A stretch of 64,000 nt of DNA from Thermospira aquatica (GTDB taxonomy: Bacteria; Spirochaetota; Brevinematia; Brevinematales; Thermospiraceae). Below the pieces are notes generated by a model, which was not told where the DNA came from, ran no database searches, and saw nothing but the letters and a program-made list of their open reading frames with translations. Below, piece by piece: positions 21,942-61,400 of this stretch (positions are counted from its first letter, which is position 1; every line of letters starts with the position of its first letter). The translations under genes were made by a program, and so were the position numbers. The stretch spans positions 1,178,001-1,242,000 of the forward strand of contig NZ_CP073355.1 in NCBI RefSeq assembly GCF_023525255.1, written 5' to 3'.

Positions 21942-22049
21942 ATGAAGGGAAAGATAGCTATAACCCTGTTACCGTTCTCAAAGAGGGATAAGCAGGGAAA
22001 AAGGTTCGATGTCATGCTGCAACAGGGTAAGAGCTTTTCGCGCGAATGA
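21942..22049 (+). CDS. Possible small protein overlapping a 19-bp-repeat hairpin
   Basis: A 35-codon frame from ATG 21942 reads MKGKIAIT near its start and MLQQGKSF near its end; these two parts are the two arms of the hairpin repeat at 21957-22035. A frame at 40629-40763 has the same pattern. The ribosome site here is weak. It may be a real small gene or a by-product of the repeat; the coding call is uncertain. Confidence 0.2.
   Translation: MKGKIAITLLPFSKRDKQGKRFDVMLQQGKSFSRE
21957..22035. repeat. Inverted pair of the 19-bp dispersed repeat (hairpin)
   Basis: GCTATAACCCTGTTACCGT at 21957-21975 faces CTGCAACAGGGTAAGAGC at 22018-22035, with about 42 bases between. Both arms carry the CCCTG form, so the stem is kept; the fourth base gives an A-G mismatch, as in the other pairs. 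The rest of the 450-bp space 21734-22184 holds AT-rich DNA and the lemA promoter. Confidence 0.75.
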
Positions 22050-24487: not shown

Positions 24488-24690
24488 GGCGCCTTGTCGC
24501 AGTGAGCGCGAAAAATTCCCCCGCCTTCCTTTATTGCAGGGGAAGAGGTTTCCGCCTGGCAAGGAAAGAAACGTCTCGAGACGAGGGGGTGGCGGTTGCT
24601 TCGATACGCTCCGCTACTCAGTGACCAGGCTTCGATACGCTTCGGTAGTCGCGAGAGAAAAACCTTTGGCTCTTCTCTTATCACAGTGAC
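24488..24690. repeat. Composite dispersed repeat, copy 1
   Basis: Starts two bases after the DUF2207 stop with the tail of a 19-bp unit (CTTGTCGCAGTG), then GCGAAAAATTCCCC, a degenerate 19-bp unit, AAGGAAAGAAACGTCTCGAGAC, GAGGGGG, two CTTCGATACGCT units and CTACTCAGTGACC, and closes with a 19-bp unit at 24668-24686. The copy at 45404-45635 has the same blocks in the same order. The CTTCGATACGCTCC/CTACTCAGTGAC blocks resemble intergenic repeats I recall from unrelated genomes. Confidence 0.75.
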
Positions 24691-24787
24691 TTCCCTGAGA
24701 GAAGCTCACTGAAACAAGGTAATAGCACGCTCTTTCCTACTGCAACAGGGTAAGAGCTTTCTCCCCAACTGCAACAAGGGAAGAGCA
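24668..24787. repeat. Cluster of four 19-bp dispersed repeats
   Basis: Units at 24668-24686 (plus), 24708-24726, 24739-24757 and 24769-24787 (all minus), matching GCTMTTACCYTRTYRCAGT or its complement with one to three changes. The second to fourth are close together, the first and second face each other. Confidence 0.85.
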
Positions 24788-38127: not shown

Positions 38128-39165
38128 TTATACCCCTTTTTGAGTTATGAGTCCTAAGGTATCGGGTAGTCCTACCATCAAATTCGCGTTCTGGATTGCC
38201 TGTCCTGAAGCACCTTTAACAAGGTTATCTATACTGCTTAAGATGATGCCCATCTTTTGGGAAGGAAGGTAGGTGAAGCTCATGTGGATTTCGTTGGTAT
38301 TTTGTACCCATTTGATTTGAGGGGCTTTTCCTCTGAAAATACGTACAAACGGGCTGTCTTTGTAGGTTTTTGTCCAGAGATCATAGATATCTTGTGTTGG
38401 ATCGGTATCAAAAGGCACATAAATCGTACTCAACATGCCTCTATCTATAGGCATAATATGAGGGGTAAAGATCAGGGAAACAGGTGAAAAATTGGTCGCC
38501 TCTAACTCCTGCACAATCTCAGGGTGATGTCGATGGTTGCCCACACTGTAAGCATAGAAATTTTCGTTCATTTCAGAAAAAAGGCCTGGAATGTCTGTTT
38601 TTCTTCCCCTGCCTGAAAATCCAGACTTGGAGTCTGCGATGATGGTGCTGTTTTGTATAAGCCCTGCTTTGAAAAGTGGAATCAGGGGCAGAAGAATACT
38701 TGTCGGGTAGCATCCTGGATTGGCTACAAGGCGGGCCTGGCAAATGCTTTCCCGAGAAAGTTCTGGAAGACCATACACAGCCTCCTGGGTGAGGGGAAAT
38801 GACGGATGGGTAAACCCATAGGCTTTTTCAAAAACCTGTTGATTTTTGATTCTGTAGGCTGCGCTGAGATCGACTACTTTAATACCCGCGGCAAGAAATT
38901 GAGGGGTAACTTTGGCGGAAGCCTCATGAGGCAGGGCAAGAAAAACAAGGTCTATATCCGTACGTTGGGTGGCATCGTCGAGGGTGATGTAGACCATATC
39001 CGTATAGGCAAAAAGATAGGGTTCACAGGATCCAATGGTTTTTCCAGCCTGGCTTTCAGAGGTGACAAAAACCACCTCAAAGGCAGGATGACGTGTAAGC
39101 CATTTGAGAAGCTCAATGCCAGTATATCCACTTCCTCCACAGATACCTATACGATAGGTTTTCAT
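38128..39165 (-). CDS. argC: N-acetyl-gamma-glutamyl-phosphate reductase
   Basis: 345 residues. Nucleotide-binding [14 protein letters not shown] at the start, catalytic Cys in [20 protein letters not shown], and HRHHPEI in the dimer region. NADPH-dependent third step of arginine synthesis. Its start overlaps the recA stop by four bases (ATGA) and argJ follows 3 bases after. Confidence 0.95.
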
Positions 39166-40208
39166 GCCTCGGTATTCTCCTCTTCGTCGTCACTTCCAAA
39201 GTCTATCTGGGGTGATTCAGCAAGATGCTTTCGTACACTTTCTTCGATCTTTTGAAATATTTCTGGTTTACTTTCTACAAGGGAGATGAGGTTTTCTCTT
39301 CCCTGGGCCACACGTTCACCATTCACCGAGTACCATGTGCCATGACGCTCGATAACACCACAGGCGAGTCCTGCATCGACAAGACATCCTGCTTTTGATA
39401 TTCCCTTGCCAAATATGATGTCAAATTCTGCTGAACGGAAGGGGGCGGCAAGTTTATTTTTGACCACTTTGACTTTAATACGGTTGCCGTAGTTTTCTTC
39501 ACCCTTTTTGAGGGTGTCTTTTTTTCGTATTTCCATACGGATAGACGAGTAAAACTTCAGAGCAAGACCACCCGTCGTGGTTTCAGGGTTTCCGTACGTG
39601 CCTATCTTCATACGGATCTGGTTGATAAAGATGAGTGCTGTTTTGGTTTTGTTGAGGATGGCGGTGAGTTTTCTGAGGGCCTGGCTCATGAGACGGGCCT
39701 GCATCCCCATAACAGCATCTCCCATGTCACCATCAATCTCTGCCCGTGGCACAAGAGCCGCTACAGAGTCCACAACAATCAGGTCGATGGCGTTACTTCT
39801 GATGAGGCTCTCGACAATCTCAAGGGCTTGCTCTCCGGTGTCTGGCTGGGAGATGTAGAGATTATCTATATCGACACCGAGGCTTTTGGCATAGAAGGGA
39901 TCAAGGGCATGTTCTGCGTCGATGAAGGCACAAATCCCCCCACGTTTCTGACATTCTGCAATGATGGAGAGGGTAAGGGTGGTTTTTCCCGAGGATTCTG
40001 GACCGTAGATTTCGGTTACTCTTCCAACGGGGATACCTCCAATCCCTAAAGCCAGGTCAAGGGTTAACGCCCCAGTAGGAATGACGGGGATGTCGTTTGT
40101 TTTACCCCGTTCTCCGAGACGCATAATGGCACCCTTGCCAAACTGTTTTTCTATCTGGGAGATTGCAATCTGCAATGCCCTTTCACGTTCTGCATTGGTC
40201 TCCGCCAT
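39162..40208 (-). CDS. recA: Recombinase RecA
   Basis: 348 residues. Walker [49 protein letters not shown] (Walker B), MSQALRKLT and INQIRMKIG are all present; the C-terminus is acidic ([13 protein letters not shown]) as usual. Homologous recombination and SOS signalling. It is the first gene of the minus-strand run down to nadE. No SOS-type operator was recognised upstream. Confidence 0.98.
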
Positions 40209-40628: not shown

Positions 40629-40763
40629 ATGGGGGGAAAGATTGCTATTACCATGTTTCAGCAAAAAGAGAATGAAAAGTCTTTTTGGGGGATGATAAAA
40701 CTGAAAAATGGTAAGAGCTTTTTCTTGTTTGCCAAGAACGATAAAGATAGAAGCTTCCTTTGA
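40629..40763 (+). CDS. Possible 44-residue small protein overlapping a repeat hairpin
   Basis: ATG 40629 follows AAAGGGG at 40615-40621 with a normal 7-base gap. It starts MGGKIAIT, has a middle with K, E and F, then NGKSFFLF. The frame at 21942-22049 shares MxGKIAIT near its start and GKSF near the end, and both overlie an inverted pair of the 19-bp repeat. Either a small gene family or a frame forced by the repeat. The rest of 40493-40779 shows nothing else. Confidence 0.3.
   Translation: MGGKIAITMFQQKENEKSFWGMIKLKNGKSFFLFAKNDKDRSFL
40644..40719. repeat. Inverted pair of the 19-bp dispersed repeat (hairpin)
   Basis: GCTATTACCATGTTTCAG at 40644-40661 faces CTGAAAAATGGTAAGAGC at 40701-40718. 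Both arms depart from the consensus in the same way (CCAT and TTTCAG forms), so the stem is kept by paired changes except for the usual A-G mismatch and one more. Confidence 0.75.
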
Positions 40764-45049: not shown

Positions 45050-45805
45050 GCTATGACGATATCACAGTGTGGTGGGGATTTTTTTGTTAGGGGGAGCTTG
45101 CTCTTCCTTTGTTGCAGTGGAAAGCAAAAGAAAGCTCACCAGCTCTTACCCTGTTGCAGTTAAAAACCACCAGTGTGATGGCTATTCCCTTATCGCAGTT
45201 AAAAAGACTGCCATGCTCTTCCCTTGTTACAGTGTGTCTGTCATGCGGGCTATTCCCTTATTGCAGTGTAAGAGGAAGAAAAGTTTTTTGCTCTTACCAT
45301 ATCACAGTGAGGGGGAAACTTCTAAGCTCTTCCCTTATTGCAGTATGGGCTATGAGAGAAAGGCTATTACCTTATCGCAGTAAGAAAACTTGCTATTACC
45401 TTGTTACAGTGAACGCGAAAAATTCCCCTGCTCTTCCTTTCTTGTAGGAGAAAAAGTTGCCGGTTGTCAAGGAAAGAAATGTCTCGAGACGAGGGGGATG
45501 GTCACCTCGATACGTTCCTGGGGAACTACTCGGCGACCGGGCTTCGGTACGCTTCGCTACTCAGCAACCGCTTCGATACGCTCCTTCGGAGCTACTCAGT
45601 GACAGAAAAACCCTCGGCTATTACCCTATCGCAGTAAAAAATTTTCCCCTGCTATTACCTTACCGCAGTGAAGGTGAAAACCAAAAACTCTTCCTTTATC
45701 ACAGAAAAAAGTTGCTATTACCTTTTTACAGGATGGAGGCAATTCCAGCTATTACCTTATCACAGTCTAAGGTTAAGGGATCATACACTGCAACAAGGTA
45801 AGAGC
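45050..45805. repeat. Left array of the 19-bp dispersed repeat (about 17 copies)
   Basis: Copies at 45050, 45100, 45142, 45181, 45215, 45249, 45290, 45326, 45363, 45392, 45430, 45617, 45651, 45687, 45714 and 45748 are on the plus strand; the last at 45787-45805 is on the minus strand. Consensus GCTMTTACCYTRTYRCAGT; copies at 45050, 45430, 45687 and 45714 are more degenerate. Spacing is irregular (29 to 50 bases, with the composite element between 45448 and 45617). This fills the 1-kb space before the IS1595-like gene. Confidence 0.92.
45404..45640. repeat. Composite dispersed repeat, copy 2
   Basis: Same blocks as 24488-24690: end of a 19-bp unit, GCGAAAAATTCCCC, a degenerate unit at 45430, AAGGAAAGAAATGTCTCGAGAC, GAGGGGG, three CTTCG(A/G)TACG units with CTACTC(A/G)GYGACC-like ends, and a closing 19-bp unit at 45617-45635. 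Copy 2 has one extra CTTCGATACGCTCCTTCGGAG unit, containing the palindrome GCTCCTTCGGAGC. Confidence 0.78.
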
Positions 45806-45933
45806 ATTTTTCTCAACCCCCAAAATCTCCCCATCGATCTTACTTTTAAAATATATAAAACATCTTTTTTAACAACTATAACAAAAAATTTTCGATATAT
45901 ATAGTATGAAAAAATTTCTCTAAGGAGAAAACC

Positions 45934-46734
45934 ATGGAAAAAGATTTTTTCACCCTCTCAGAAAACGAATCTTACCAAATCCTCGAAAAAGCCCTCTGGC
46001 CAGAAGGGGCGATTTGTCCCCACTGTAAGGCAAAAGCACGCCTTCTCTCGTGCCGGCTGGTGTATCAGTGCCCCAAGTGTGGAAGGCAATTTTCCTTAAA
46101 AAGCCAGTCCATCATGCGAAAAAGTCACCTCTCGCCAAAGGTTTGGCTTATCGCCATCTTTCTTGTCTCTCAAGATGGTGGCATAAACGCCGTGAAACTT
46201 TCCCAACTTCTTCATATTAGCTACAAGGCAAGCTGGCTTCTTCTTCAAAAGCTACGAAGCCTCATGCGGCTTACTAACCGTCACCACACAAAATCCATAC
46301 GAAAACTTGTCAAAACCTTTTTCTTTCTCTCGGGTATCAAACGCCGCCAGCGAAAAAATTTCTCCCCGATGCAGGTTGTCGAAATTGATGCAGATGATAT
46401 CCCTTCTAAACTTCACATTCACCTTGTGGATGATGTGAGTAGCGATTGGCTTTCAGACTTTTTTGGCAAGTTTTTCCGCCACACCTCGGTGGAAAAAAGA
46501 ACGCCGTGGCTTTCCCACATTAACGATGGGTTGAAAAACCTTCTTGAAGACGTCTATCACTATGGTTGTCGAAAGCACATGCAGCGCTATCTTGATGAAT
46601 TCTGTTTTCGGTTTAACATCGAGGGGGTTTCTTCCAGGCTTGAAGAGCTTTTAAGAAGGCTTGGCAAACGTCGTCAGCTCCTCCCGTGGAAAAAGCTTAT
46701 TGCTGAAGGGCTTATTCTCCCCATCCACGCGTAG
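45934..46734 (+). CDS. IS1595-like transposase-derived protein with shortened DDE domain
   Basis: 266 residues from ATG 45934 behind AAGGAG. The N-terminal zinc ribbon CPHC...CPKCGRQFSL and the SQDGGINAVKLSQLLHISYKASW helix region match IS1595/ISSpo3-type transposases; the C-terminal stretch KHMQRYLDEFCFRFN is the family's YLDEFxFRFNRR signature. Between them the catalytic core is short: VVEIDADD (first Asp) is only about 50 residues from the INDGLKNLL segment that aligns with the late SNLK region, where about 100-120 would be usual. So two strands of the RNase H fold seem to be lost. Flanked on both sides by the 19-bp repeat. Likely domesticated or non-autonomous. Confidence 0.72.
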   Translation: MEKDFFTLSENESYQILEKALWPEGAICPHCKAKARLLSCRLVYQCPKCGRQFSLKSQSIMRKSHLSPKVWLIAIFLVSQDGGINAVKLSQLLHISYKASWLLLQKLRSLMRLTNRHHTKSIRKLVKTFFFLSGIKRRQRKNFSPMQVVEIDADDIPSKLHIHLVDDVSSDWLSDFFGKFFRHTSVEKRTPWLSHINDGLKNLLEDVYHYGCRKHMQRYLDEFCFRFNIEGVSSRLEELLRRLGKRRQLLPWKKLIAEGLILPIHA

Positions 46735-46911
46735 GTTCTGGTTTTTTCTTTCTCACAACGTTTCCTGAGTCTGTCAAATGAGAATGGAAGGTTTTTGTTT
46801 TACTTTTTTCTTTCTGGATTTTTTTTATCCTTTTGAAAGAAAAAGAGAGGAGAAACTCGAAAATTCATGGTGAAAACGTTTTTTCGTGAGGGGAAAGAAG
46901 AAAAAACATGT

Positions 46912-47405
46912 GCTATTACCTTGTTGCAGTTTTTAGCACCTTATACCCCACGGTATGGTGACGGCTTTCCTGCGATAAGGTAAGAGCAATTTTGGCAAGT
47001 CTCGCGTTAAACGTTTAACTTGAGTTTCTCTTCCACACTCTTGAGTGAAAAGACATTTGATCTTACCTTCTTACAGCTAAAAACTGTTTTTTAGCTATTA
47101 CCCTGTTGCAGTAAAAAAACCGTCCACAAGCACCATAAAAACTGAAACAGGGTAAGAGCAGTGCCTCCTCCACCGTCTCCCGATGATACCTTTGGAGAAA
47201 AAAGAAAAGAACAAAACAAAAGCTCTTCCCTTATCACAGTTTTTTTCTTTCACTTTTTTGCTGTAACAGGGTAAGAGCAGTTCTCTCCCACTGCAACAAA
47301 GTAATAGCTAAACCCCAAATCCCCTTGTCCCACACTGCAACAAGGGAAGAGCATCCCCCACTGCAACAAGGGAAGAGCAATACAAAACTGCAACAAGGCA
47401 ACAGC
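46912..47405. repeat. Right array of the 19-bp dispersed repeat (about 11 copies)
   Basis: Plus copies at 46912, 47059 (degenerate), 47094 and 47222; minus copies at 46970, 47141, 47261, 47290, 47334, 47360 and 47387. 46912/46970, 47094/47141 and 47222/47261 face each other as hairpin pairs. The six outer right copies include five consecutive minus ones. Space 46735-46911 has no gene. Confidence 0.92.
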
Positions 47406-47642
47406 CGCCCCCCAAAAAAAAATTTATTTTCCATTTCACTTTTTAGTAAATTTTTGAGTATATTATACAGAGAGTACAGCGGAGTCTGTCCTCTCCAATG
47501 ATAAATTCTTTTACGTCACGGACGACACCTCTATCAAAAAGCGATTTCCTATCAAAAATTTCTCCTCCTATCAACAAAGAGCGGCGTGAAGCCGATATAC
47601 AAAAAAAGTCATACTGAAACAGAGTTACAGCAAGGAGGCGAT
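47406..47642. other. Upstream region of the giant-protein operon
   Basis: AT-rich near 47440-47470, with a possible -10 TATTAT at 47461 but no clear -35. A sequence ACTGAAACAGAGTTACAGC at 47613-47631 looks like a degenerate minus-strand copy of the 19-bp repeat and ends right before the AAGGAGG ribosome site of the giant gene. Confidence 0.4.
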
Positions 47643-50600
47643 ATGAAATCGCATCGCATTCTTTTCCCCCTGATTCTATGGCTGGGAGCTCTTCCCGGAT
47701 GGGCAGAGTATTTCTTCACGACGTTTAACGCAGCGGAGAATACTATCTTCCAGTACAATTTTTTGTACTCGCCCCAGATGGGAGTGCACAATGTGGGAAA
47801 CAACTACGCTACGGCTTTTAATACAAGTACCCTTAGGATTACCGGTCAAGGGAACACGGCAGCATACTATAATGAGCTTTACGGTTTTTTTGTCCGCAAA
47901 ACCAATGTAATATATACCGCAACCAAGGAAAGACCCATAGGTTTTGAATTGACGAGGACGTTTTGTCGACTGGACCCAGATAGAGGGATTCAGGCCGAGT
48001 CAGGACGTATGCGTGAAGCGTTTCACCTCATGTGGGTCCAGCACGATCCTGCGGTTGATACTGTTGGAGAATTTCTTTCCAATTTTGTCCATTTCTCCGA
48101 ACTTATGCGCCCTCAACTTGGGACCAATGACGGTTTTCCCAGTGAACCAAATATTCTTCCCCGGTCATTCTGGGCATCTGACCTCGCCTTTACGAGAAGC
48201 TCTGCATACTCCTTTTCAAATCTTACCCCTCCAAATGGGGGAGGAAGCCACGATCTCTCGGCCCTTTTCCTGTGGGGATATGATGATAATTATGGGTTGG
48301 GGATTTACGAAGGAAATACGGGTTCTATTAATTGGCCCTACTTTAATAACAACAATGTTGTACGTTTCCGTGTCACAATCGATGGAGAGTATGCCTACTT
48401 TTATGTGAATCCTAATCCTACCGGGGTAGGTAAGACAGACTATGATGGTACTCCTCGTGCAGCGGGATACTATTCCAACCAGTTCTATTTGGTGGGGAAG
48501 GTAGCAGTGAATTTCTCCAATAACCTTATCCCCATGTTTGGTGTTTCAGATAATCGTCCTGATGGAGAGATGCTTTCTTACTATGTGGATGACATGACGA
48601 TCCGCACCATTGCGGCAAGCAACGTCGCTGAGATTTCGCCTGTCATGACCAGAGCAGGGACAACGAATGCCCTGCGGATAGCCATCCATCCCTGGTTTTC
48701 GACCGTAAACGAAGCGGGAGTGCAGGAGGTGTATGTTGATTTACCGCAGAGCTATCTTAGCTATACCAACTGGACAGCCTTTACCAATCAGGTGGGAGTG
48801 TTCTGGGCACAAACCAATGGGCAGACCATCTATCGTACTTTTAATCGACAATGGGCAGATGTCAATCCTGCAGGAGGGACGGTAGCGATCTCTGTAAAAG
48901 AGAATGGCAAACGACTCAAGATCCGCTTTAATGCCGCAGCAACTCCCGATGTTTTCCATCCCAATTATAGTGGTTTTGGGGGAAGTATTGCTACAACCCA
49001 CCAGTACATGATCTATATCGTGGTGAGTAACTTTTCCACTCCTGCAGGAGCCGACATAGCGGGAAAGACGATAGAGGTGTATGTAAATAACGAAAAATAC
49101 CAGGATACCACCTGGGCAAATAATGCGACCACGGGACCGGCAAAGGCATATGCAGGCAATGTAACAGCCTTTTCAGGCTTTATGGCAGACAACAACACCC
49201 TCTCCTTTTCCACAGCCAACGATCCCGTTGGTGTCGCTGCGATTCGACCCAACTTTACCTATGAGGGAGAGTCCAAGACATGGTTTGTCGATGTAGCCGC
49301 CAAAGATGCAAGCGAATCCGCAGACAACAATGCTGATATTGTGCAAGTGGAGATTTATCTTCCACCGGGCTTCGAGGCTCAACCAGGCAGCTTCTCAAGC
49401 GAAAGGCTGACCAATACCTCGAGTATTGCGTATGATACGGCGCTGCGTCGTATCTCCGTGTATTATACCAACGAGAACAAATACCTCATTGCAGGTTCCG
49501 GGATTGATACCATCCGTTTTAACAATATTTCTACCACCAATCTTGATACCATCCCTCCTGCAGGAACCAACCAGATCTCCAACTCGATTCTCGTGGTAAG
49601 CTATGCCGCCCTTCCGGGGACAAAGCCCGTTACCAATGTAACGAGTCTCTCTTACCCCCTGCAGAGTTTTCTCATCCGTAAAAAACCCCCGAAAATGCAG
49701 GGAGCGATGCTTCCCACCGAGGTAAGTAACACCCTGGTAAGTAACCAGTATGCCTATCTCATCCAGAACAAAGCAGAAAACACAGGAAACAATATCCGTC
49801 GTCTTTTGGTTCGTCTTGACAGAATATTTACGAATGTGGTGGGAGTGGTAGCAGATAGACCGGCAGTGATTACCTTTTCCTACAATATTACAAACAACAA
49901 TATTACCAATACGGAGGGATATTGGTGGATTCTCGTGGACTATGCAGCCGCTTCTACCAACGTTGTCAAGGGGGAGAGTGCGACAGTGACGTTTTGGGCG
50001 TATGATACAGCTCCCTCGTTGGCAAATGATCTCTACGCTACCAATATAAGCTATGCCGACAACTTCAATGGCGATGGTTGGGTAGCGGCTACCGAGGAAC
50101 CTACCACAGGATGGGTTACCAAATTCTATACTCCACCGGCAAATGTGCGTTCGTATATTGTAGAGCCCCTCAACGAAGATGGCATCCTGGATGCGAGTTA
50201 TAACCACCATCGATATACAGACAGAGAAGATAGCTTCCTTGTCCGCCTGCGTATCAAAAACTGGGGAGAACCAGAGAATAGTATCTACAAGGTTCGCGTG
50301 ACCCTCCCTGATGGGATAACCAACATTGATAGCGTTTCTTCATTACGGATAGGACCTTCGCAGATGAGGACCTATACAACCAATGGTGGTCAGAACGTGG
50401 TCGCTGAATTCTTCTACACCAATAGCCCCATTCCCCCCACCGAAGTGGATGACCTGCTTCTCTGGATTCGGGATGATATTCATGCTCCCGTGACGAAGAC
50501 CATCCAGGTTGAGGCAGCCAATACCACCAACTATGCCCTCGGTGGGCTTGAGGGGGCAGACAATCTCGATCTTCGCTTTATTTATCCGAAGCCAGCAGCT

Positions 50601-53600
50601 GAAGGGTATGTCATTGTTCCTGATGGTTTCATTGATGCGGCAACCAACGAGGCCACTATTTATTACGCTATCTCCAATACAGGCCTCCACGAGAATCAGA
50701 TCAAAGAGCTCTATCTCTGGATTAATACCAACTATATCACCAATGTGCAGTTCCTCTCTTCCTCTCTGGGAGGCACCTACACAGGATTTGTTCCGGATAC
50801 CCCACCGTATTATCGTTTCCAGGTACAGTACTACACCACCTTTTACGGGGCATCCAACGAACTCCTTACCTTCAAAGTGTTTGATAACGTGGAAAACCGT
50901 GCTGAATTTCCGATTTATTTCTCTGTTTCCAATCTCCGAATGTGGAGTAACCAGCTTCCTGCACCCCCCACTCAAACGCAGAACGTCAAAATGATTCCAC
51001 CCCCTGTTTTCTATGCTTACGGGATAGAGCGTACCGTTGCCTTTAAGGCTGTAAGTCTAGGGGAAACCAATACACTGACCGTGAGACTCCGTGTTACCAA
51101 CCTCGGATGGGGGAGCAATAAGCTTCACAAACTGCGTCTCTGGATTCCGTTTGGGCTCACCAATCAACTGCAACAGGTCAGTAACGCCCTTCTCGAGCGT
51201 ACCAATGAGCCCGCAGGACCGGTGAAACTCGTGGCTTCTAACCTTATTGAGATCAGTTACATTGATGGTGGTCAGGAACTTCTGGCAGGAAATGCCGATG
51301 ACACCTATCTTACCTTTGGCGTGTTTACCAATCAGTCGATAACAGGACACTTTGTCTTGGCGGTAGCAAACAACTCCCTGGATGAGGGAGGTCAGTATCA
51401 GTGGACCAATTACTGGACAAATGTGGCTGTTTTAAGTGCTACCAATATCTTTACGCTGGTGGATCCTGCGAGATTCTATATCCAGCCAACCGTCATTGCC
51501 ACGCCGGCAACCTCAACGATTCTTTCCAATCGTATTGAGAATGGGGTGGAGGCTTTCGGACGAAAAATCCGTCGTGTTGAACTCACCTATGATGATAATT
51601 TCATTACAAACGTTGAGGTGCTGAATGCAGGTTCAGGAGGTTTGGCAACAGTGATTGGTGGTACCAATGTTCGCGTGGATTATACCCCTGCTCTGGATCC
51701 CAATGCAGGACGGTGGATCGTTGTACGAGTCTACGATAGGTGGCTCGAGGGCGATACCAATATGCTGGTGACAGCAAAGGTATGGTACGAGGCTGATCCA
51801 CTTGGGGGAGGAGAACCTGCCCTCATCAAGGAAGGCTACACCAACCTTGTGGATTTTAAGAACCCAGCAGCATCTGCGCAGGGGTACGTAACTCCATCGA
51901 TAGTGTGGCAGGATTTTTTGGCAACAAACTACACCCTTTTTATCACCAATACCGGGGATACAGGGAACGATATCAAGTGGGTCAGGATTGTGCCTCCTTC
52001 CTTTATTACAGGGATGTCTGCGGGAGTTTCTACAAAAGGGGCGGTAGTGTTCGTCTATCCTTCGGTGATAGATGTCTATTATACGAATGTAAGCTTTGCC
52101 CCGGGCGAGGTGGATACTATTTCCTGGCAGGCTTCTGACAATATTAGTAACACAGAGGTTTCGGAAGTGTGGGACCTCTATGTCAACAATACTTTGCAGG
52201 ATACCCTCTTCCAGAGTGTTGGAGTTTTGCCAGGATATAGCCAGATTCTTACTATTCGACGTCCTGCGTATCAGGTAAACTACTATGTAGAGTTTACCAA
52301 TAGCATCAATACCTCTCAGCGCAACCGGATGTATGCCACAGAGGAAACAAACAGTGTTAAGATCTTTATCAACAATACTGGTTCCACCGGGAATGATATC
52401 GTTGCTGTACGGATTCCCATTCCATCGATTTATGATCCTACGACAGCACCGGACAACCTTTTTATTACCAACGATATGACGGTAACAAGTCTCAAGGGAA
52501 CGGTTGCCCTCTCCAACGATAGCGTATGGGTGAACTACAGTAGCAATCCGATTCTCCCGATGGATGGGGATGAGGTGCTGATTACCCTGCGAGACAGAAT
52601 AGATCACTATGAGACCAATCTCACCTGGACACTCCAGGCAAACCTCAATACGACAGCAGACCAGTACAAAGATGCTTCTGTCCAGGTAGGTCAGTCAGCA
52701 ACAGCTTTCTATGTGATGCCTTCGCCTCAGGCGATGGCGACCCTTTTGCCATCAGAGATCTATCTTGAACGTCGAAGCTTCTGGCTTAGCCTTGTGGTGA
52801 GCAATACAGGACGGGGAACAAGCGATATCGATCAGGTTCAGATTACCCTTCCATCAGTGTTGCAGAGCGACTTTGATATCACAAAAGTTTCCAATACGGT
52901 AGCCTCCTCTACCAACTATAGTAGTGGAGTACTCACACTTTCCTATAGTCCGCCGATTGTACCTGGAGCTAAAGATACCATCTACCTCCTGGTAACCAAT
53001 ACAGCCTCCTCGGTCAACGACGATGTGACACTCACGGTAACCGTACGCAACTTTGTGAAAACAGGACCGGCCTCGGGAAACACCGTACTCTCCCTTTCAA
53101 CGCTTCCTACCTATTATGTGTACGTCAACCAATCCGAGGCAAATCGCACGGTAGATACCACCACGATGACGAACATCTTCTCGATCAATATTGACAACTC
53201 GGTGAATACGTCTCTCCGTGTCGGAAGGATCCGTGTTGCCTTCCCGACGAATTGGTTTACCAATGGAGATGCCTACGGGAGTGAGCGCTACATTACCAAC
53301 ACGGCTCACATCACAGGGCATCCAACCAACATCATCGCAGAATACGCCCTTGACGGACGGAAGATCGTAAGTGGCGATTACGATGTACTGAATTTCAGAC
53401 TCTGGGATAATCTCAGGATTGGGAGCTTTACAAACTATGTAGAGGTATATGTTGACGATGGACTCGCGATAGAAGAGAGCGAACGCTGGATCAAGCTTCC
53501 TGTGGCAGGTGGCAAGACCAACCAGTTCATCTTTGAGATGCCGCCGACAGAGACGGCTCAGTCCATGACTACGACAACCATCTACGTAGATACCGAAGTA

Positions 53601-55442
53601 ACCAATACCACGATACGACTCACCAACCGGGCAACAACCGACAATCCTGTCTCCATGGCCCGGATTGTCCTGCCGATGGGGATTACCAACATTGACAGTC
53701 TCTTTAGCACCAAAGGAACTGCAACCTATGAGGCAACCACGCATCGTATTGTGGTGGATTATCGTCCAGCTTTCCTGGAAACCAACCAGATGGATGAGAT
53801 AACCTTCACTTTCTCCAATCTCTACCGTGTTCCCACCAATGTAGGCTTCTATGTCGATACAGCAAACCTTACCAACGAGAGTGAGATGCTCTTCACGGTA
53901 GCACCTGGAATAAATGGCTCAGTTTCCCTCCTCAAGATTAACTATCCCCTTGTTGCAGTCGAGGGAGGCTTCTACGGTGACAATCGCATCTATCTCATTG
54001 ATACCAATGCCACCCTTATCTACAGGGTATTGAACCGAACCTTTGAGAGTGTGGTGACGCAGGTGGTTATCACGTTTGAGAAGGATATCACGAACTACTT
54101 CTCAGAGATAAGCCTGGCCAATACGATAGCCACAGTGACGCGTCCGGATACCAATACCAACCAGTTTATCCTGAGTTATACAACAGCAGATGGAATCAGG
54201 CAGGGATACTACGAGGATCTGGTGTTTACGCTTCGTTACAACCTCTCCAACACGGATGTAATCCCCATCACGACCCGTGTCTGGCTTGAAAAGACAGGAC
54301 CCAACGGAACCAACGTCAACGCCCTCAAGGTGCTTGCCTCAAGCGCTGAGGTGAACCTCCTCTTCATCACCAATGCGAACTGGGGTGTGGTACGGGGAAG
54401 TGTCTTCCCAACCAACAGAACCGTCAATGTCAAGATCTATGCGCCTGAGAGCTCGACTCCATCGTTGGATATTAATGGACAGGTGCTCTCCACCTCCAGT
54501 CGTGTGCCAGAGGGAACCTATGTGATCCGCAAGATCCCGGGCGGTACGTATGATATTGAGTTCTCTGCGCCCTACTACCGCAGTCAGCGCTACAGGACAA
54601 ACATCCAGCCCAATGTGATCACCGAGATTCCTCAGATCCCGATGCGCAATGCTCCACTGTTGGGTGGTGAGGATGAAGCGCAGGTGGTAGAATGTTACGA
54701 AGAGACCAATAGCTTTATTGTCTTCCCTGGCGGTTCAGTGGGTAAGGAATTCTCGGTAGATATCACACGGGTACCCCTGACAGCCGAGCAAAAGCGTAAC
54801 CTTACGGAGAACAAGGCGGTAAAAGCCCCATCTACGACTGAGAACATGTATGGGTACCGTTTTGCCCTCAACACGAGAGACGATAAGCCCATGGATGGAG
54901 CTATTGTAAAGCGTGATGCTATTCTGTATCTTGCCTACGATCCAGTGGATATAGCTTCTCGCGGCTGGAGTGAACAGGATCTTGCGATCTACTACTGGGA
55001 TGACAATGGTCTCAATCCTCGTTGGGTGAGGATCGGAGGCGAGGTAGATACGACGGCGAAGCGAGTGGTAGCTCGTGTAAGCTATGTGCATAGCATTTAC
55101 GGTGTCTTTAGCCGTGCTGGTGAAGAGAGGCCCGGTATAATCACGGCTGTGACGCTTCGACCAAAGGTATTTACCCCCAGCAGGTCGGGGGACGGCTACT
55201 ACGGCTCGATACGGGTAACGATAGAGTTTCGAGAGGCGGTAAAGCGCTACGAGGTCAAGATCTTTGATCTCAAGGGCAACCTCATCCGGCGGTTTATCCG
55301 TGAGGATGGTCCGTATACGCAGGGAGAGATAGCCTGGGATGGCAAAGACACGGAAGGCTACGATGTGAAAAATGGTGTGTACGTGTACAAGATATATGCC
55401 GGCGGTGAGACCTACAGTGGTACGCTGGTGATTGCACGGTAG
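47643..55442 (+). CDS. Giant secreted Asn/Thr-rich repeat protein, copy 1
   Basis: About 2599 residues from ATG 47643, set by AAGGAGG and the signal peptide (MKSHRILFPLILWLGALPGWA); a GTG frame to 47586 lacks support. Residues about 20-345 form a beta-sandwich/lectin-like region ending DDMTIRTIAASNVAEISP, shared with the next gene. Then come many diverged Ig-like repeats of 100-180 residues, recognisable by NTG-x2-(G)ND-I-x2-V and a later V-x-Y...G-x-x-D-x-I. The C-terminus has a carboxypeptidase-regulatory-like module (GVVRGSVFP), a ZU5-like part (LAIYYWDDNG...WVRIGGEVDT) and an FlgD/T9SS-like end (VKIFDLKGNLIRR, WDGKDTEGYDVKNGVYVYKI, GTLVIAR). Surface or fibre protein. Confidence 0.82.
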   Translation: MKSHRILFPLILWLGALPGWAEYFFTTFNAAENTIFQYNFLYSPQMGVHNVGNNYATAFNTSTLRITGQGNTAAYYNELYGFFVRKTNVIYTATKERPIGFELTRTFCRLDPDRGIQAESGRMREAFHLMWVQHDPAVDTVGEFLSNFVHFSELMRPQLGTNDGFPSEPNILPRSFWASDLAFTRSSAYSFSNLTPPNGGGSHDLSALFLWGYDDNYGLGIYEGNTGSINWPYFNNNNVVRFRVTIDGEYAYFYVNPNPTGVGKTDYDGTPRAAGYYSNQFYLVGKVAVNFSNNLIPMFGVSDNRPDGEMLSYYVDDMTIRTIAASNVAEISPVMTRAGTTNALRIAIHPWFSTVNEAGVQEVYVDLPQSYLSYTNWTAFTNQVGVFWAQTNGQTIYRTFNRQWADVNPAGGTVAISVKENGKRLKIRFNAAATPDVFHPNYSGFGGSIATTHQYMIYIVVSNFSTPAGADIAGKTIEVYVNNEKYQDTTWANNATTGPAKAYAGNVTAFSGFMADNNTLSFSTANDPVGVAAIRPNFTYEGESKTWFVDVAAKDASESADNNADIVQVEIYLPPGFEAQPGSFSSERLTNTSSIAYDTALRRISVYYTNENKYLIAGSGIDTIRFNNISTTNLDTIPPAGTNQISNSILVVSYAALPGTKPVTNVTSLSYPLQSFLIRKKPPKMQGAMLPTEVSNTLVSNQYAYLIQNKAENTGNNIRRLLVRLDRIFTNVVGVVADRPAVITFSYNITNNNITNTEGYWWILVDYAAASTNVVKGESATVTFWAYDTAPSLANDLYATNISYADNFNGDGWVAATEEPTTGWVTKFYTPPANVRSYIVEPLNEDGILDASYNHHRYTDREDSFLVRLRIKNWGEPENSIYKVRVTLPDGITNIDSVSSLRIGPSQMRTYTTNGGQNVVAEFFYTNSPIPPTEVDDLLLWIRDDIHAPVTKTIQVEAANTTNYALGGLEGADNLDLRFIYPKPAAEGYVIVPDGFIDAATNEATIYYAISNTGLHENQIKELYLWINTNYITNVQFLSSSLGGTYTGFVPDTPPYYRFQVQYYTTFYGASNELLTFKVFDNVENRAEFPIYFSVSNLRMWSNQLPAPPTQTQNVKMIPPPVFYAYGIERTVAFKAVSLGETNTLTVRLRVTNLGWGSNKLHKLRLWIPFGLTNQLQQVSNALLERTNEPAGPVKLVASNLIEISYIDGGQELLAGNADDTYLTFGVFTNQSITGHFVLAVANNSLDEGGQYQWTNYWTNVAVLSATNIFTLVDPARFYIQPTVIATPATSTILSNRIENGVEAFGRKIRRVELTYDDNFITNVEVLNAGSGGLATVIGGTNVRVDYTPALDPNAGRWIVVRVYDRWLEGDTNMLVTAKVWYEADPLGGGEPALIKEGYTNLVDFKNPAASAQGYVTPSIVWQDFLATNYTLFITNTGDTGNDIKWVRIVPPSFITGMSAGVSTKGAVVFVYPSVIDVYYTNVSFAPGEVDTISWQASDNISNTEVSEVWDLYVNNTLQDTLFQSVGVLPGYSQILTIRRPAYQVNYYVEFTNSINTSQRNRMYATEETNSVKIFINNTGSTGNDIVAVRIPIPSIYDPTTAPDNLFITNDMTVTSLKGTVALSNDSVWVNYSSNPILPMDGDEVLITLRDRIDHYETNLTWTLQANLNTTADQYKDASVQVGQSATAFYVMPSPQAMATLLPSEIYLERRSFWLSLVVSNTGRGTSDIDQVQITLPSVLQSDFDITKVSNTVASSTNYSSGVLTLSYSPPIVPGAKDTIYLLVTNTASSVNDDVTLTVTVRNFVKTGPASGNTVLSLSTLPTYYVYVNQSEANRTVDTTTMTNIFSINIDNSVNTSLRVGRIRVAFPTNWFTNGDAYGSERYITNTAHITGHPTNIIAEYALDGRKIVSGDYDVLNFRLWDNLRIGSFTNYVEVYVDDGLAIEESERWIKLPVAGGKTNQFIFEMPPTETAQSMTTTTIYVDTEVTNTTIRLTNRATTDNPVSMARIVLPMGITNIDSLFSTKGTATYEATTHRIVVDYRPAFLETNQMDEITFTFSNLYRVPTNVGFYVDTANLTNESEMLFTVAPGINGSVSLLKINYPLVAVEGGFYGDNRIYLIDTNATLIYRVLNRTFESVVTQVVITFEKDITNYFSEISLANTIATVTRPDTNTNQFILSYTTADGIRQGYYEDLVFTLRYNLSNTDVIPITTRVWLEKTGPNGTNVNALKVLASSAEVNLLFITNANWGVVRGSVFPTNRTVNVKIYAPESSTPSLDINGQVLSTSSRVPEGTYVIRKIPGGTYDIEFSAPYYRSQRYRTNIQPNVITEIPQIPMRNAPLLGGEDEAQVVECYEETNSFIVFPGGSVGKEFSVDITRVPLTAEQKRNLTENKAVKAPSTTENMYGYRFALNTRDDKPMDGAIVKRDAILYLAYDPVDIASRGWSEQDLAIYYWDDNGLNPRWVRIGGEVDTTAKRVVARVSYVHSIYGVFSRAGEERPGIITAVTLRPKVFTPSRSGDGYYGSIRVTIEFREAVKRYEVKIFDLKGNLIRRFIREDGPYTQGEIAWDGKDTEGYDVKNGVYVYKIYAGGETYSGTLVIAR

Positions 55443-55452
55443 GAGGTGGAGT

Positions 55453-58400
55453 ATGAAGGCGATGAGATACATCCTTTTCCTGGCTTTGGCAGTGAGTATG
55501 TGGGGACGGTCTCTCTACTACTACCAGGGATTCTCAGACCCGGCTATGGATACCAATAGCTACAACAGCGGTGGCTGGCAGTGGAATTTCCCCATGAGTA
55601 GAGATATGATGGTGTGGGATGTGCAGGATCTGTTTGGGGCTACAGATAGGGATTTCCCAGCTACGGTGAGGCGCTACAATGGGCTCCTTGAGATCTATGG
55701 GAGACCCAACAAGAGTTCGCTTGCTTGGAATAACTGGTATATTGGTGATGGGGCGAAGTTTAGTCCTGCTGGTGCTGGGCTGGGGACGATCAATGCCACG
55801 CCTGAGGAGCCCTTTGGGTTTACGGTGATTCGCTATACCAATAGCATGGATCCGCGGGGGGATGCGGGCGAGGCATATGGCTATTCTTCAACTCCCAACC
55901 AGAAATCATTTGTCAACGTCTGGATAGCAAGTGATAACGGGGCATCCCAGCCCTATGATCGGTGGAACGATTTTGCCTACTTTTTTGAGAAGCAACACTG
56001 GAACCAGACAAGTACCTACGGCTTTTTTGAGACGCGGGAATATGTGGTGGGATTTCCCACGACGGATATAGACGGTGTTTCGGTAGGTACCGCTGCAACT
56101 ATTACCGCTACTTTTCAAAGAAACTACGATGATAATAACCAGAATTACCAAAACACACTTTCTAGACATTTTACAGGCGGGGATGGTTACTTTAATCCTG
56201 TGAATGCGCCCCTGGGGATTCGTGTGACCCATGATGGGCGCAAGGTGAGTTTCTACGTTAACTACAATCCTCTGGGGACGACGCCCAATCTGAGCAATGC
56301 GTGGGTTAAGGTAGGGGAAAAAGAGGTTCCCTGGAGTACCAACCTTGTGGCGTTTCTCTCGACGGAGAGTCCGTTTTTCCGTGAGGGAGAGGTAGAGACC
56401 CAGTTTGATCATTTTCTTATCCGGACGGTGGCAAGTAATCTCACAGCGAGAATCTCTCCTGTTCGCGTGATGACCAACCGTTCTCTTCAGTTCAAGCTTA
56501 CCGTTCATGTGGAGACCGCACCAGAGGATAGTGGTGTCCAGGAACTGTATATCAAGAAGCCAGCAGGCTACGGAGCATGGAACACCGCAAGTGTGGCGCT
56601 AACCAACTCTTCGGGAGGAGTGCCGATTCGAGGCTTTATCAACAATGGAGCGTCTGCTCCGACAAGCGGAAGATTTCAGGTAAAGGTGTTGGCTTCAGGT
56701 GATCTTTATATCCGTTTCTGGGCCCAGAGTCAGTCTCAGAATGATATTATCCGCAGTGATGATATAGATGTGTACTTTACCCTGACGACACCCTCTACCC
56801 CCAATCCGGCAGGAGACAATTTTGAGGTTTATGTGGATAGTGTGAAGCACACCGATACCGCGCAGGATGTTCTTTTTGATACGGTGAATGGACTCCCTTA
56901 CGCCACAACAGGACGCCAAAAAGCCCGTGAGGCTTTTGCTGATAGTTTACGGGTACGGGTGTACAGTGCCCCTCAGGCATATGCCAAGGTAGAGTATAGC
57001 CCTTCTCCGATTATTATCGGGACCGAAGAGAGCAGCTTCACCGTGAAGCTCTCCACCGAAGGGCTAACAACGATTCCGCCGATCTCGAGTGCGCGTATTT
57101 ATATTCCTTCAGGATTTACGGTATCAAACAACACCACAACGCTGACAAATATTGTGTCGACCGTGTTGGGGGCATCAGCCAGTGCCAACAATATCCGGGT
57201 GACAAACATCAGTGGCAGTAACTTTATCTGGATCTACTATACCAACCTGGTGACCCTGGGACTCCCTCCTGCAAGTGGATTTGACAAGATCAACTTCAAG
57301 GTATATGGGACGCCTTTGTTTACAGGAATTCCTTACTCTAACTATCTGTGGCAGGTTGAAGTCAACAGTGATGAGGTTGTGAGCGGTGTTTCGTGGGCCA
57401 AGGCGGGTACCAACATCGTTTATTCGAGTCAGCTTGTACGTGTAGCCTCTTCCAATGCCCAGGTAGCGGCAGCCATCAGTCCTGCAGAGGTGGCTATCAA
57501 TGCCGCCTATAGTTCCAATGCGATTCGTTATAGCTATACCATCAAAAACGATGGTCCAACAGGCAATAACGTCCATCGGATCTTCATCCAGCTACCGGGG
57601 AACTACTCTGACAATTCCGTTTCCAATATCACCGTATCCACACCGGGAGCAACGGCAGCCTACTCCAATGGAGCAATATGGGTAACCTATGGGACGCCTC
57701 TCTCTTCCGGAGCTACCTCAACGATTCAGTTCTGGGCTGCCTTTACCAATACCAATGTCACGGGAGCATCAGAGACGGCAGAGTTTATTCTCTACGCCGA
57801 CAACAACAACTCAGCAGGCTACACCCTCCAGTACGAGAATGCCCCCCTCACCTGGAGGGTTTCTATCCTTCCGCCGAGAGTGAAGGGAGAACATGCTATC
57901 AACGTTGTAGAAGGAAGTGTCACCAATGCCCCTGAAATCACGACAGACAAGGTCTCTAGCAGACTTATCCACTGGATCTACAACACCTCTCCCAAGGGAG
58001 TGATGATACAAAGTATTGATATCCTCTATCCCCAGACACTTCTCACCAATATCGTGCCAATATCAAGCAGTCTGACAACCAATACCACTCTCTCCGTGAT
58101 AGAAGAGGGAAACTATTTCGTCGTAAGGCTTGCTTACACGAATTTCCTCTCGTTGTACGATGATGTAGCCTCTTCAAAAGACCAGGTGGTAGTCGATGTT
58201 TTCGACAGTATTGAGCTTCCTACCAATTTCATCATCCCTGTCCGCGTGTACAAGACGGATGTTCCTACGTCGGATTTTTACTCTTCTAACGATGCAACGA
58301 TAGGTATCATGTTCTCGGGCTCCAATCGATTGTATGTAAATTATCCTCTTCCCGAGATTTCATGGGGTGTGAAGCCAGGGGATCTTGATTCTACCACAGA

Positions 58401-61400
58401 GACGAACCGCATGACCTGGGTGATCAGTAACAGAGGTCTTTCAGGCAATAAAATCTATCAGGCCCGTTTAACCATTCCGACCAATGTCACCACCAATATT
58501 GTTAACACCATCATAACGAATAGTGCAGGGACCGTAGTGGGAGCTCTTCTCTATACACCTACAACGGGAGTTATCCAGGTAAACTTCTCTTCCCCTCTTG
58601 TCGGTGGAGAGACAGCGTATGCCCACTTTGACATGGTAGATCACGTAGACAACATGGATCTTCTCAATCAGCTTCTCTCATGTCAGGTAACAAACGATAG
58701 AGGGTGGTTTACTGTTTCCAACATCGTGGGGGATTACTATTCCTCGCTTAACTTCCGTCTTCCTAAACCCTCTGGTGGTGGCTGGGTGACACCCAATATC
58801 TTCTTTGTCAATACCAATGGACCATCGGTAGTGACCCAGCAAGTGGTGGTGTTTGTCACCAACACAGGAGGCCAGAACGATCGTTTCAACAGTGTGGAGA
58901 TCAAGCTTCCACTGCCGTGGACCAATACTGTCGCATGGGCCTCAAGTACCCTTCTGGGTCTTACCTCTACCAACAGTGGATTCTTTACCATTACACCAAC
59001 CAATGTGAGGATTACGTATCCTGTGGGAAGTCATGAGTTCAAGTCGGGAATGGGCGATTATGTCACGTTAGAGCTTCGTATCTCCAACCGCACAACCCTG
59101 CCCGTAAGCGGCACATGGCAGATTCTGGCTAACAATGGGTTTGTGGACTATGGTTTTAGCCCTCCCAAAGACTATTTTGAGATTACCAATGTGGGTACTG
59201 AGGCTCAGCGACAGGCCTATGGAACGGCTATGCTCGTGGCTTCACTCGATACGACGAATGTGACTCGTACCGTTACAAATGGTCAATTCAGATTCTCTGT
59301 GACCAATGGTATTGCGGGAGGCATGGCTGTAAAATGGATGAAGATAGAGATCCCATCCCTCTATGTCGTTTTGACCAACACGATCACGGTAGATGGTTAT
59401 AGTCCTCTCAAGACGATCTCCAATAACGCCATCTGGCTCGATTTTTCAGCAAGCGAGCTTGTAGCGGGAGCAAACTTTACCGTAGACTTCCAGTGGAAGA
59501 AAGGAATCCAGCAGACACTCACCAATCAATTCTGGCGGGTGACGGTTGCCTATTCAAGTAACTTTACAGAATATGAGATGGACAGCTATGGGGCACAGGA
59601 TCAGAATATCATCAATGTGCCACTTACTTTCTATGCCGCGGTTTCTCCCAACAAGGTAAACAAAGACCTTGCATACATGCAGTATACGGTGACGATCACG
59701 AATACAAGTGAAGAAGGGAATAACATCACGCTTCTCAAGATTGTACCACCATCAACCAATGCTAATCTCAAAGAGATACTCACCAATATCACGGGTGTGA
59801 ATTCCTCTCGTATTGGAAACAACGCTGTTTACTCCAATGATGGGGTGATCTATGTGGATTATCTCTCCCAGGGAACCTCAATTAAGCGTGGAGAAGTGGA
59901 CACGATTGTCTTTACGGCGTATGATAGGGAGAATACAGCGTACTTTAGTGGGACAAGGGCTCTCTCGTGGCAGATTCTTGCAGCAAACGCAAGCTGGGAT
60001 CTTCCAACCAATCAGGGACAGCCTAACCTTGCACTGTGGACAAATGATCTCTCCCTCGAGTTTGTTGTCCCTCCTTACAAGACGGTTTACGCTATTGCAC
60101 CGACCAATCTTAACACGGTTGATGTGACCAATACCCTCGAGTTTGCTCTCCAGAACACAAGTGAAAGTTTTGCAGATGTGATTGAGAGACTTAGGATTTC
60201 GATACCATGGCCCTTCCGCACCAATACCATTGCCTTTGTAAGTACCAAAGCCTCAGGGTATACTATTACCAATGAAAATGGTACCAACTATCTTGAGATA
60301 AGCTATCCGGTAGGGCGCATGGCACCGGGATCGAATGACATTATAACCCTCAAGTGGTTAGATGATTTTGAGCATGGTGAAACCAATACAACCCTTGCCC
60401 TGAGTGTCCGTTATACGACATCGGGTTCTACCTATGTAGAGGCTCTTCCACAGATCGGGGCAACGAATGTTGTCAACTTTAAGATGCCTGTTCCTGAGAT
60501 GAGAGCAGGGCTTGTGGTAAATGAGATCTATACGACACTCAGAGAAGGAACCCTCACCTTCGTGCTTACCAACAAGGGATACGGTCAAAATACGGTGCAG
60601 AGAATGCGTCTCGAGGTTCCTGAAGGATTTACCAACATTCTGGATGTGAGTAAGATTCGCTTTGTTTCACCTGTTGATATTACCAACACCAATGTGATAC
60701 TCCCCAATATCTACGAATTTTATCCAACAGGACTTCTCACCAATCAGGTAATCCGCGTCGAGATTGATGTAACCAACACGCTGACCAACACCACCTATGA
60801 TGTGCCATGGGTATGGACGATGGACAATGGCTATGTGACGACGAATATCACGATCCTTTCCCATGTGATTGATCCAGGTTCGGCAGAGTTGATAGAAAGA
60901 ACAGTTGCCTCTGACAAAAAGAGTCACACCATAACCCTCAAAGTGTACAATAATACGCCTGGTTTGCTTCCACTCTTGCGGGTGAAAGTAGAGCCTAATA
61001 ACAGTTTCTACACCAATATTAACAGTATAACGAGCTCTGCTGGGACAATTTCCAACGTCACAGAGAACAGTTTCTGGATCGTGTATACCACACCTCTTGC
61101 CAAAGGATCGGTCGATACGGTGACAATGACCCTGTATGACAATACCAACCAGCTTATAACCAATGATCTTGAGTGGAAGGTATGGGGAGACAACGGAACA
61201 GAACCGGCGATTCTGAGAGAAAAATCAGCCGGTGCTTTGAAGCAGAACACCACTATTTCTAAACCTGATGTCACAAATATCTGGCATACCTCGTGGTACA
61301 TTATTCCAGGTAATGATCGCATAGCGGACTTCCGTCTGACCGTATCCAATAGAAGTGCAGATGAGGTAGTGGTGATCACTAACATCCTTACCATTCCTGC

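Follow-up and report, generated by a model that had tools for sequence, protein, structure and literature searches.

Triad-less IS1595-derived proteins form a selected, recombining family within arrays of terminal-repeat-like motifs in a spirochaete genome

Within a 64,000-nucleotide stretch of the Thermospira aquatica chromosome (the window), one gene encodes a protein that looks like an IS1595-family transposase at both ends and is short in between. What such a gene is, and how it is kept and spread in its genome, is the question raised by this locus. A first-pass annotation had described an IS1595-like protein with well-kept ends and a short middle, and had read it as domesticated. The open reading frame is real, with the place, strand and length given there (Table 1), and 13 paralogues of the same length and layout put it far beyond chance. 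Judged by its sequence, it evidently derives from an IS1595-family transposase.

The zinc ribbon expected of that family is present (PF12760, Pfam E 2.5e-9, 37 bits, over the cut-off). The IS1595 DDE profile, PF12762, matches only at its positions 112-153, the last 42 of 153, with an E value of 2e-5 that falls just under the cut-off; this match covers the C-terminal YLDEFCFRFN region and leaves the remaining DDE profile, and with it a complete DDE/N catalytic domain, unmatched. Against the NCBIfam IS1595 model NF033547 the protein scores 62.2 bits (E 6e-17), where the curated cut-off is 75. The annotation was thus right that the ends, both the DNA-binding zinc ribbon and the C-terminus, are well kept and that the middle is reduced.

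The reduction had been placed differently. The Asp of VEID had been taken as the first Asp of the triad (D1), about 50 residues before INDGLKNLL; the distance holds (44 residues from D152 to I196) and the register does not. In an alignment with canonical relatives (VEVDE ... TDG ... ISN/aS), the first-Asp strand VEVDE aligns to KLVKTFFFL, and the alignment together with two structure models rules out VEID as D1, since it sits on strand 2 and not on strand 1. The Asp of VEID also varies within the genus, with ECD, ECN and ECT in sister species. At the aligned triad positions the window protein has K for D1, a gap where the D2 segment is deleted, and G for N; across seven Brevinematales proteins the D1 position is K, R, H or T. 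With D1 substituted, the D2 segment deleted and N replaced, strand transfer would be unlikely, as the annotation had supposed.

An AlphaFold2 model of the window protein, built from 23 input sequences, has a pLDDT of 85.5 and a pTM of 0.84. It contains strands at residues 124-128, 146-151 and 160-165, a helix at 170-180, a three-residue strand at 183-185 and C-terminal helices at 191-207, 213-228 and 232-244. The model of a canonical relative (L049; pLDDT 85, pTM 0.83) has strands at 144-151, 169-176 and 182-190 and then a helix, beyond which lie a strand at 211-214 ending at D2, a short helix, a strand at 227-230 and the same helices as in the window protein. In these models strands 1-3 of the RNase H-like core and the following helix are kept, and most of strand 4, the D2 loop and strand 5 are missing, contrary to the earlier view that strands 2-3 were lost. 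Neither a complete RNase H fold nor an intact DDE/N triad is seen in predicted structure or alignment. A search of the PDB with the window model gave no significant match; the best were weak retroviral-integrase-like matches at E 0.03 and above, which, insignificant as they are, would be in keeping with a zinc-binding and RNase H-like layout.

The 2.515-Mb genome carries 13 intact copies of the gene, 91-94% identical, and 3 broken ones. Among the intact copies mean dN is 0.028 and mean dS 0.251 (dN/dS about 0.11), and 2888 of 4154 pairwise differences fall on third positions, which shows that they evolve under purifying selection. The copies also recombine (PHI p 0.002; 56% of the informative site pairs are incompatible). 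All 13 are identical over a 50-bp stretch of the C-terminal helix region (coding positions 600-650), and the best conserved part of the leader, from -60 to -30, has diverged by 1.4%. Recombination is also suggested past the end of the gene (46735-46900 in the window, and the counterparts at other copies), where two unrelated versions are exchanged between copies. A search for PF12762 and PF12760 in this 99.8%-complete, one-contig genome detected neither a complete IS1595 DDE domain nor another full zinc-ribbon transposase that might act as a helper in trans.

Table 1. Features of the locus and related motif sites, in window coordinates
Feature	Position	Strand	Remark
Further inverted motif pair	21957-22034		
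Small solo array (+---) of GCTMTTMCCYTRTYRCAGT motif, no gene	24669-24786	.	
Left array of 15 + strand copies of GCTMTTMCCYTRTYRCAGT (up to 3 mismatches), mostly 27-50 bp apart	45050-45766	+	
Left inverted motif pair directly 5' of gene (+ 45748-45766, - 45787-45805)	45748-45805	.	Single-strand fold z -3.1
Unit common to copies, from ACTGCAACAAGGTAAGAGC (45787) to GCTATTACCTTGTTGCAGT (46930)	45787-46930	+	Homology of many copies ends here
Possible promoter, weak consensus match, in best conserved leader part	45878-45905	+	Consensus match alone not above chance
IS1595-derived protein, 266 aa, DDN triad lost	45934-46734	+	One of 13 intact copies
Zinc ribbon with invariant Cys 28, 31, 46 and 49, aa 9-52	45958-46089	+	Pfam
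Helical region, aa 68-121; family-conserved W71, Y97, W101, R108	46135-46296	+	Presumed DNA-binding helix-turn-helix
Reduced RNase H-like core (predicted), aa 124-185: strands 1-3, helix, strand 4 remnant; no catalytic residues	46303-46488	+	
C-terminal helices, aa 191-244, with conserved YLDEFCFRFN	46504-46665	+	Model and copy comparison
Right inverted motif pair (+ 46912-46930, - 46969-46987)	46912-46987	.	Single-strand fold z -4.6
Right array, 9 motif copies, mixed order, then all -	47059-47405	.	

The surroundings of the gene are as unusual as the protein. Genome-wide pattern counts give 470 occurrences of the 19-bp terminal-repeat-like motif GCTMTTMCCYTRTYRCAGT at no more than 1 mismatch, and 0 of a reversed-pattern control. 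Array statistics come from a 400-kb sample, in which the arrays are mostly intergenic, often have their motif copies 30-40 bp apart and often pass from a run on one strand through a mixed zone to a run on the other; the sample holds 7 clusters of four or more motif copies without the gene and 3 gene loci with arrays on both sides. Every gene copy sits between inverted motif pairs, inside directional arrays, and the pairs fold as hairpins (z -9.2 at L033). The common unit has terminal inverted repeats of about 20 bp at 45787 and 46930, as an IS1595 insertion sequence does. Beyond these ends, several types of left and right flank occur in mosaic combinations among the copies. Target-site duplications, which are of 8 bp in IS1595 insertion sequences, are absent from all 16 copies examined. 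A search for one left flank type (A) lacking the gene brought up no clean empty site; its matches were at 70-76% in solo arrays, apart from one copy that another insertion sequence splits.

At L013 (about 680-2740; near 1558680-1560740 of G000:C1) the left hairpin of a gene copy is split by an unrelated insertion sequence, whose 459-aa ORF appears to be a DDE-type transposase and whose terminal sequence is CCCAACTTGCAAC. The recA gene (39162-40208, - strand) has an inverted motif pair 436 bp upstream, at 40644-40718 of the window, and one arm of the pair matches the motif form of a sister species. The right array is followed, at 47586-63102, by two very large ORFs on the + strand (about 2,600 aa each), the first of which resembles a repetitive cell-surface protein.

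Two sister species in the Brevinematales carry diverged relatives, about 40-44% identical and in the same reduced form. Their genomes hold 2-6 matches each, compared with the 13 intact copies in the window genome (G000); three in the sister genome G002 are full copies, 41-44% identical to the window protein. In G002 the motif has its own version, GCTATNACNNTRTTTCAGC, counted 310 times against 3 for the window motif, and G000 has 12 of GCTATNACNNTRTTTCAGC and 470 of its own. The layout, (+ -) gene (+ -), is found in G000, at all 3 full G002 copies and, with more mismatches, at one G001 copy. Since G000 and G002 each have their own motif version and the layout is shared, protein and repeat have diverged together. 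Close to L032 and L027, two relatives at a greater distance, no copy of the motif was seen.

Members of the Paenibacillaceae hold the same type of protein as many intact paralogues, with 12 matches in P. profundus, 6 in P. apiarius and 15, fragments included, in Cohnella fermenti. The triad is not intact in the 36 ORFs aligned from six genomes of this family, and for the closest P. profundus and P. apiarius pairs dN/dS lies at 0.11-0.25, a sign of purifying selection. Tandem arrays (TRF score at least 100, period at least 20) occur within 1.5 kb of 18 of the 36 genes and of 10 of 138 background genes. Two motifs flank the gene in Cohnella, CTTATCCCCT upstream in several copies and AGGGGATAAG downstream, and each is an inverted copy of the other. 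A GAAC-N4-GTTC box (up to 1 mismatch), which is the Bacillus-type LexA box, lies near the open-frame start at 35 of the 36 genes against a background of 0.41 per kb, and such boxes are often paired about 28 bp apart; LexA is present in both Paenibacillaceae genomes tested. Boxes of this SOS/LexA type stand at the start of Paenibacillaceae IS1595-like genes (L126-L165), triad-bearing P. filicis copies included. A LexA (PF01726) profile search of G000-G002 found none, which speaks against LexA control in the spirochaete, and the Paenibacillaceae observation therefore does not carry over to the window genome. A tree sets the Brevinematales proteins apart from those of the Paenibacillaceae; placing all triad-less forms in one clade is not rejected (p-AU 0.31), and convergence is accordingly not claimed.

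Three known kinds of element invite comparison. With the IS1595 family (ISXO2/Merlin-like; PF12760 and PF12762, NF033547) the window protein shares the zinc ribbon, the helical region, an RNase H-like scaffold and the C-terminal YLDEFCFRFN. It differs in having no D1, D2, N, strand 5 or D2 loop and a score under the cut-off, and its gene is bordered by motif arrays where the family has single terminal repeats; without a complete catalytic domain or target duplication, the system lacks defining features of an IS1595 insertion sequence. In RAYT/REP systems a transposase-derived gene accompanies inverted short repeats dispersed extragenically in hundreds, and gene and repeat are confined to a lineage; RAYT-type bacterial repeat-associated transposase genes use HUH nucleases, and RAYTs as generally described keep their catalytic residues. 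The window gene is likewise flanked by inverted, dispersed extragenic repeats and confined to one lineage. However, its protein is built on an IS1595 DDE-type scaffold and not on the HUH tyrosine nuclease (Y1) of TnpA-REP, there are 13 copies per genome, the catalytic residues are lost and the arrays are long and directional; in the absence of an HUH protein, the system is not a RAYT. MITEs and insertion sequences that target REP-like repeats are also known, for example ISPpu9 (PMC8450116). They resemble the window system in their dispersed inverted motif pairs and in gene copies lying inside repeats, but here no intact partner transposase of the same family was found in the genome, and the ends of the gene unit are themselves motif copies.

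The family has lost the triad, is maintained by selection, exists as recombining copies and is tightly associated with its repeat across species, with no same-family helper in the genome searched. We judge it probable, at roughly 60%, that the gene encodes a transposase-derived DNA-binding protein without DDE/N chemistry and forms with its array a selfish or co-opted unit of RAYT/REP-like kind that spreads by recombination. The zinc ribbon and helices would bind the 19-bp motif, and gene and array would act as one unit functionally like RAYT/REP. Homologous recombination or gene conversion through the arrays, and not DDE transposition, would spread and homogenise the copies. Against this stand the exact ending of the common unit at terminal-repeat-like sequences, as in a transposon, and the lack of motif matches near L032 and L027. 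The alternative to a non-catalytic protein would be an active site of noncanonical kind or help from an unrelated transposase.

That alternative amounts to an active insertion sequence, transposing by unusual catalytic residues or another transposase and preferring its own arrays as targets. The 19-20 bp inverted ends of the unit, the different places of its 13 intact copies and their several left and right flanks would suit it, as would the canonical, triad-bearing P. filicis relatives. These are compact and IS-like, carry terminal inverted repeats of 24-35 bp and, in one case, show an apparent 9-bp direct repeat at the ends. We nevertheless consider it unlikely. The conserved acidic triad is absent, as are target-site duplications and a complete IS1595 transposase elsewhere in the genome; copies 91-94% identical with a dS of about 0.25 do not point to a recent burst, and the long array flanks common to copies suggest segmental exchange.

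A domesticated host regulator or chromosome organiser, binding the arrays for control of neighbouring genes, nucleoid structure or repair and kept for the benefit of the host, seems to us less likely again. Strong purifying selection, the mostly intergenic position of the arrays, the SOS-type boxes at nearly all Paenibacillaceae genes and two cases of a neighbourhood common to P. profundus and P. apiarius are in its favour. Copy number is nevertheless high and variable between sister genomes, three copies are broken, and a 470-copy motif is nearly absent from the sister genomes, as expected of a selfish system. The annotation's proposal of domestication fits only partly: a recombining multicopy family amid hundreds of terminal-repeat-like motifs is not a single-copy host gene. 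Plain decay, in which a dead insertion sequence with a deletion is copied passively, would account for the catalytic-domain deletion and the broken copies and is very improbable, being refuted by the dN/dS over the intact copies and opposed by the same reduced form in the sister species.

Beyond the window genome, we put forward more tentatively, and at odds somewhat against, that IS1595-derived proteins without DDE catalysis, lost possibly more than once, make up a previously undescribed gene-repeat class: recombining or paralogous families in arrays of transposon-end motifs, under SOS control in Paenibacillaceae, that would bind the arrays and steer recombination. A search of open-licence papers found none describing an IS1595-derived gene-repeat system or its SOS/LexA link. 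If such a class exists, a gene-plus-repeat lifestyle does not need transposase chemistry, and there would be a direct way to test how families of this kind spread and, in Paenibacillaceae, whether damage-induced control ties them to recombination. Several Paenibacillaceae members pass the NF033547 cut-off, and proteins named transposases by the NCBI IS1595 model would then be non-catalytic.

Two further observations come from this family. By eye, the P. filicis end TTATCC...CTCAGG is similar to the Cohnella motif; its likeness to that of the spirochaete is looser. In P. psychroresistens (L145) a triad-less gene adjoins a divergent gene that keeps both the D1 and the D2 position intact, and a 26-bp tandem array of about 12 copies lies downstream of the triad-less gene.
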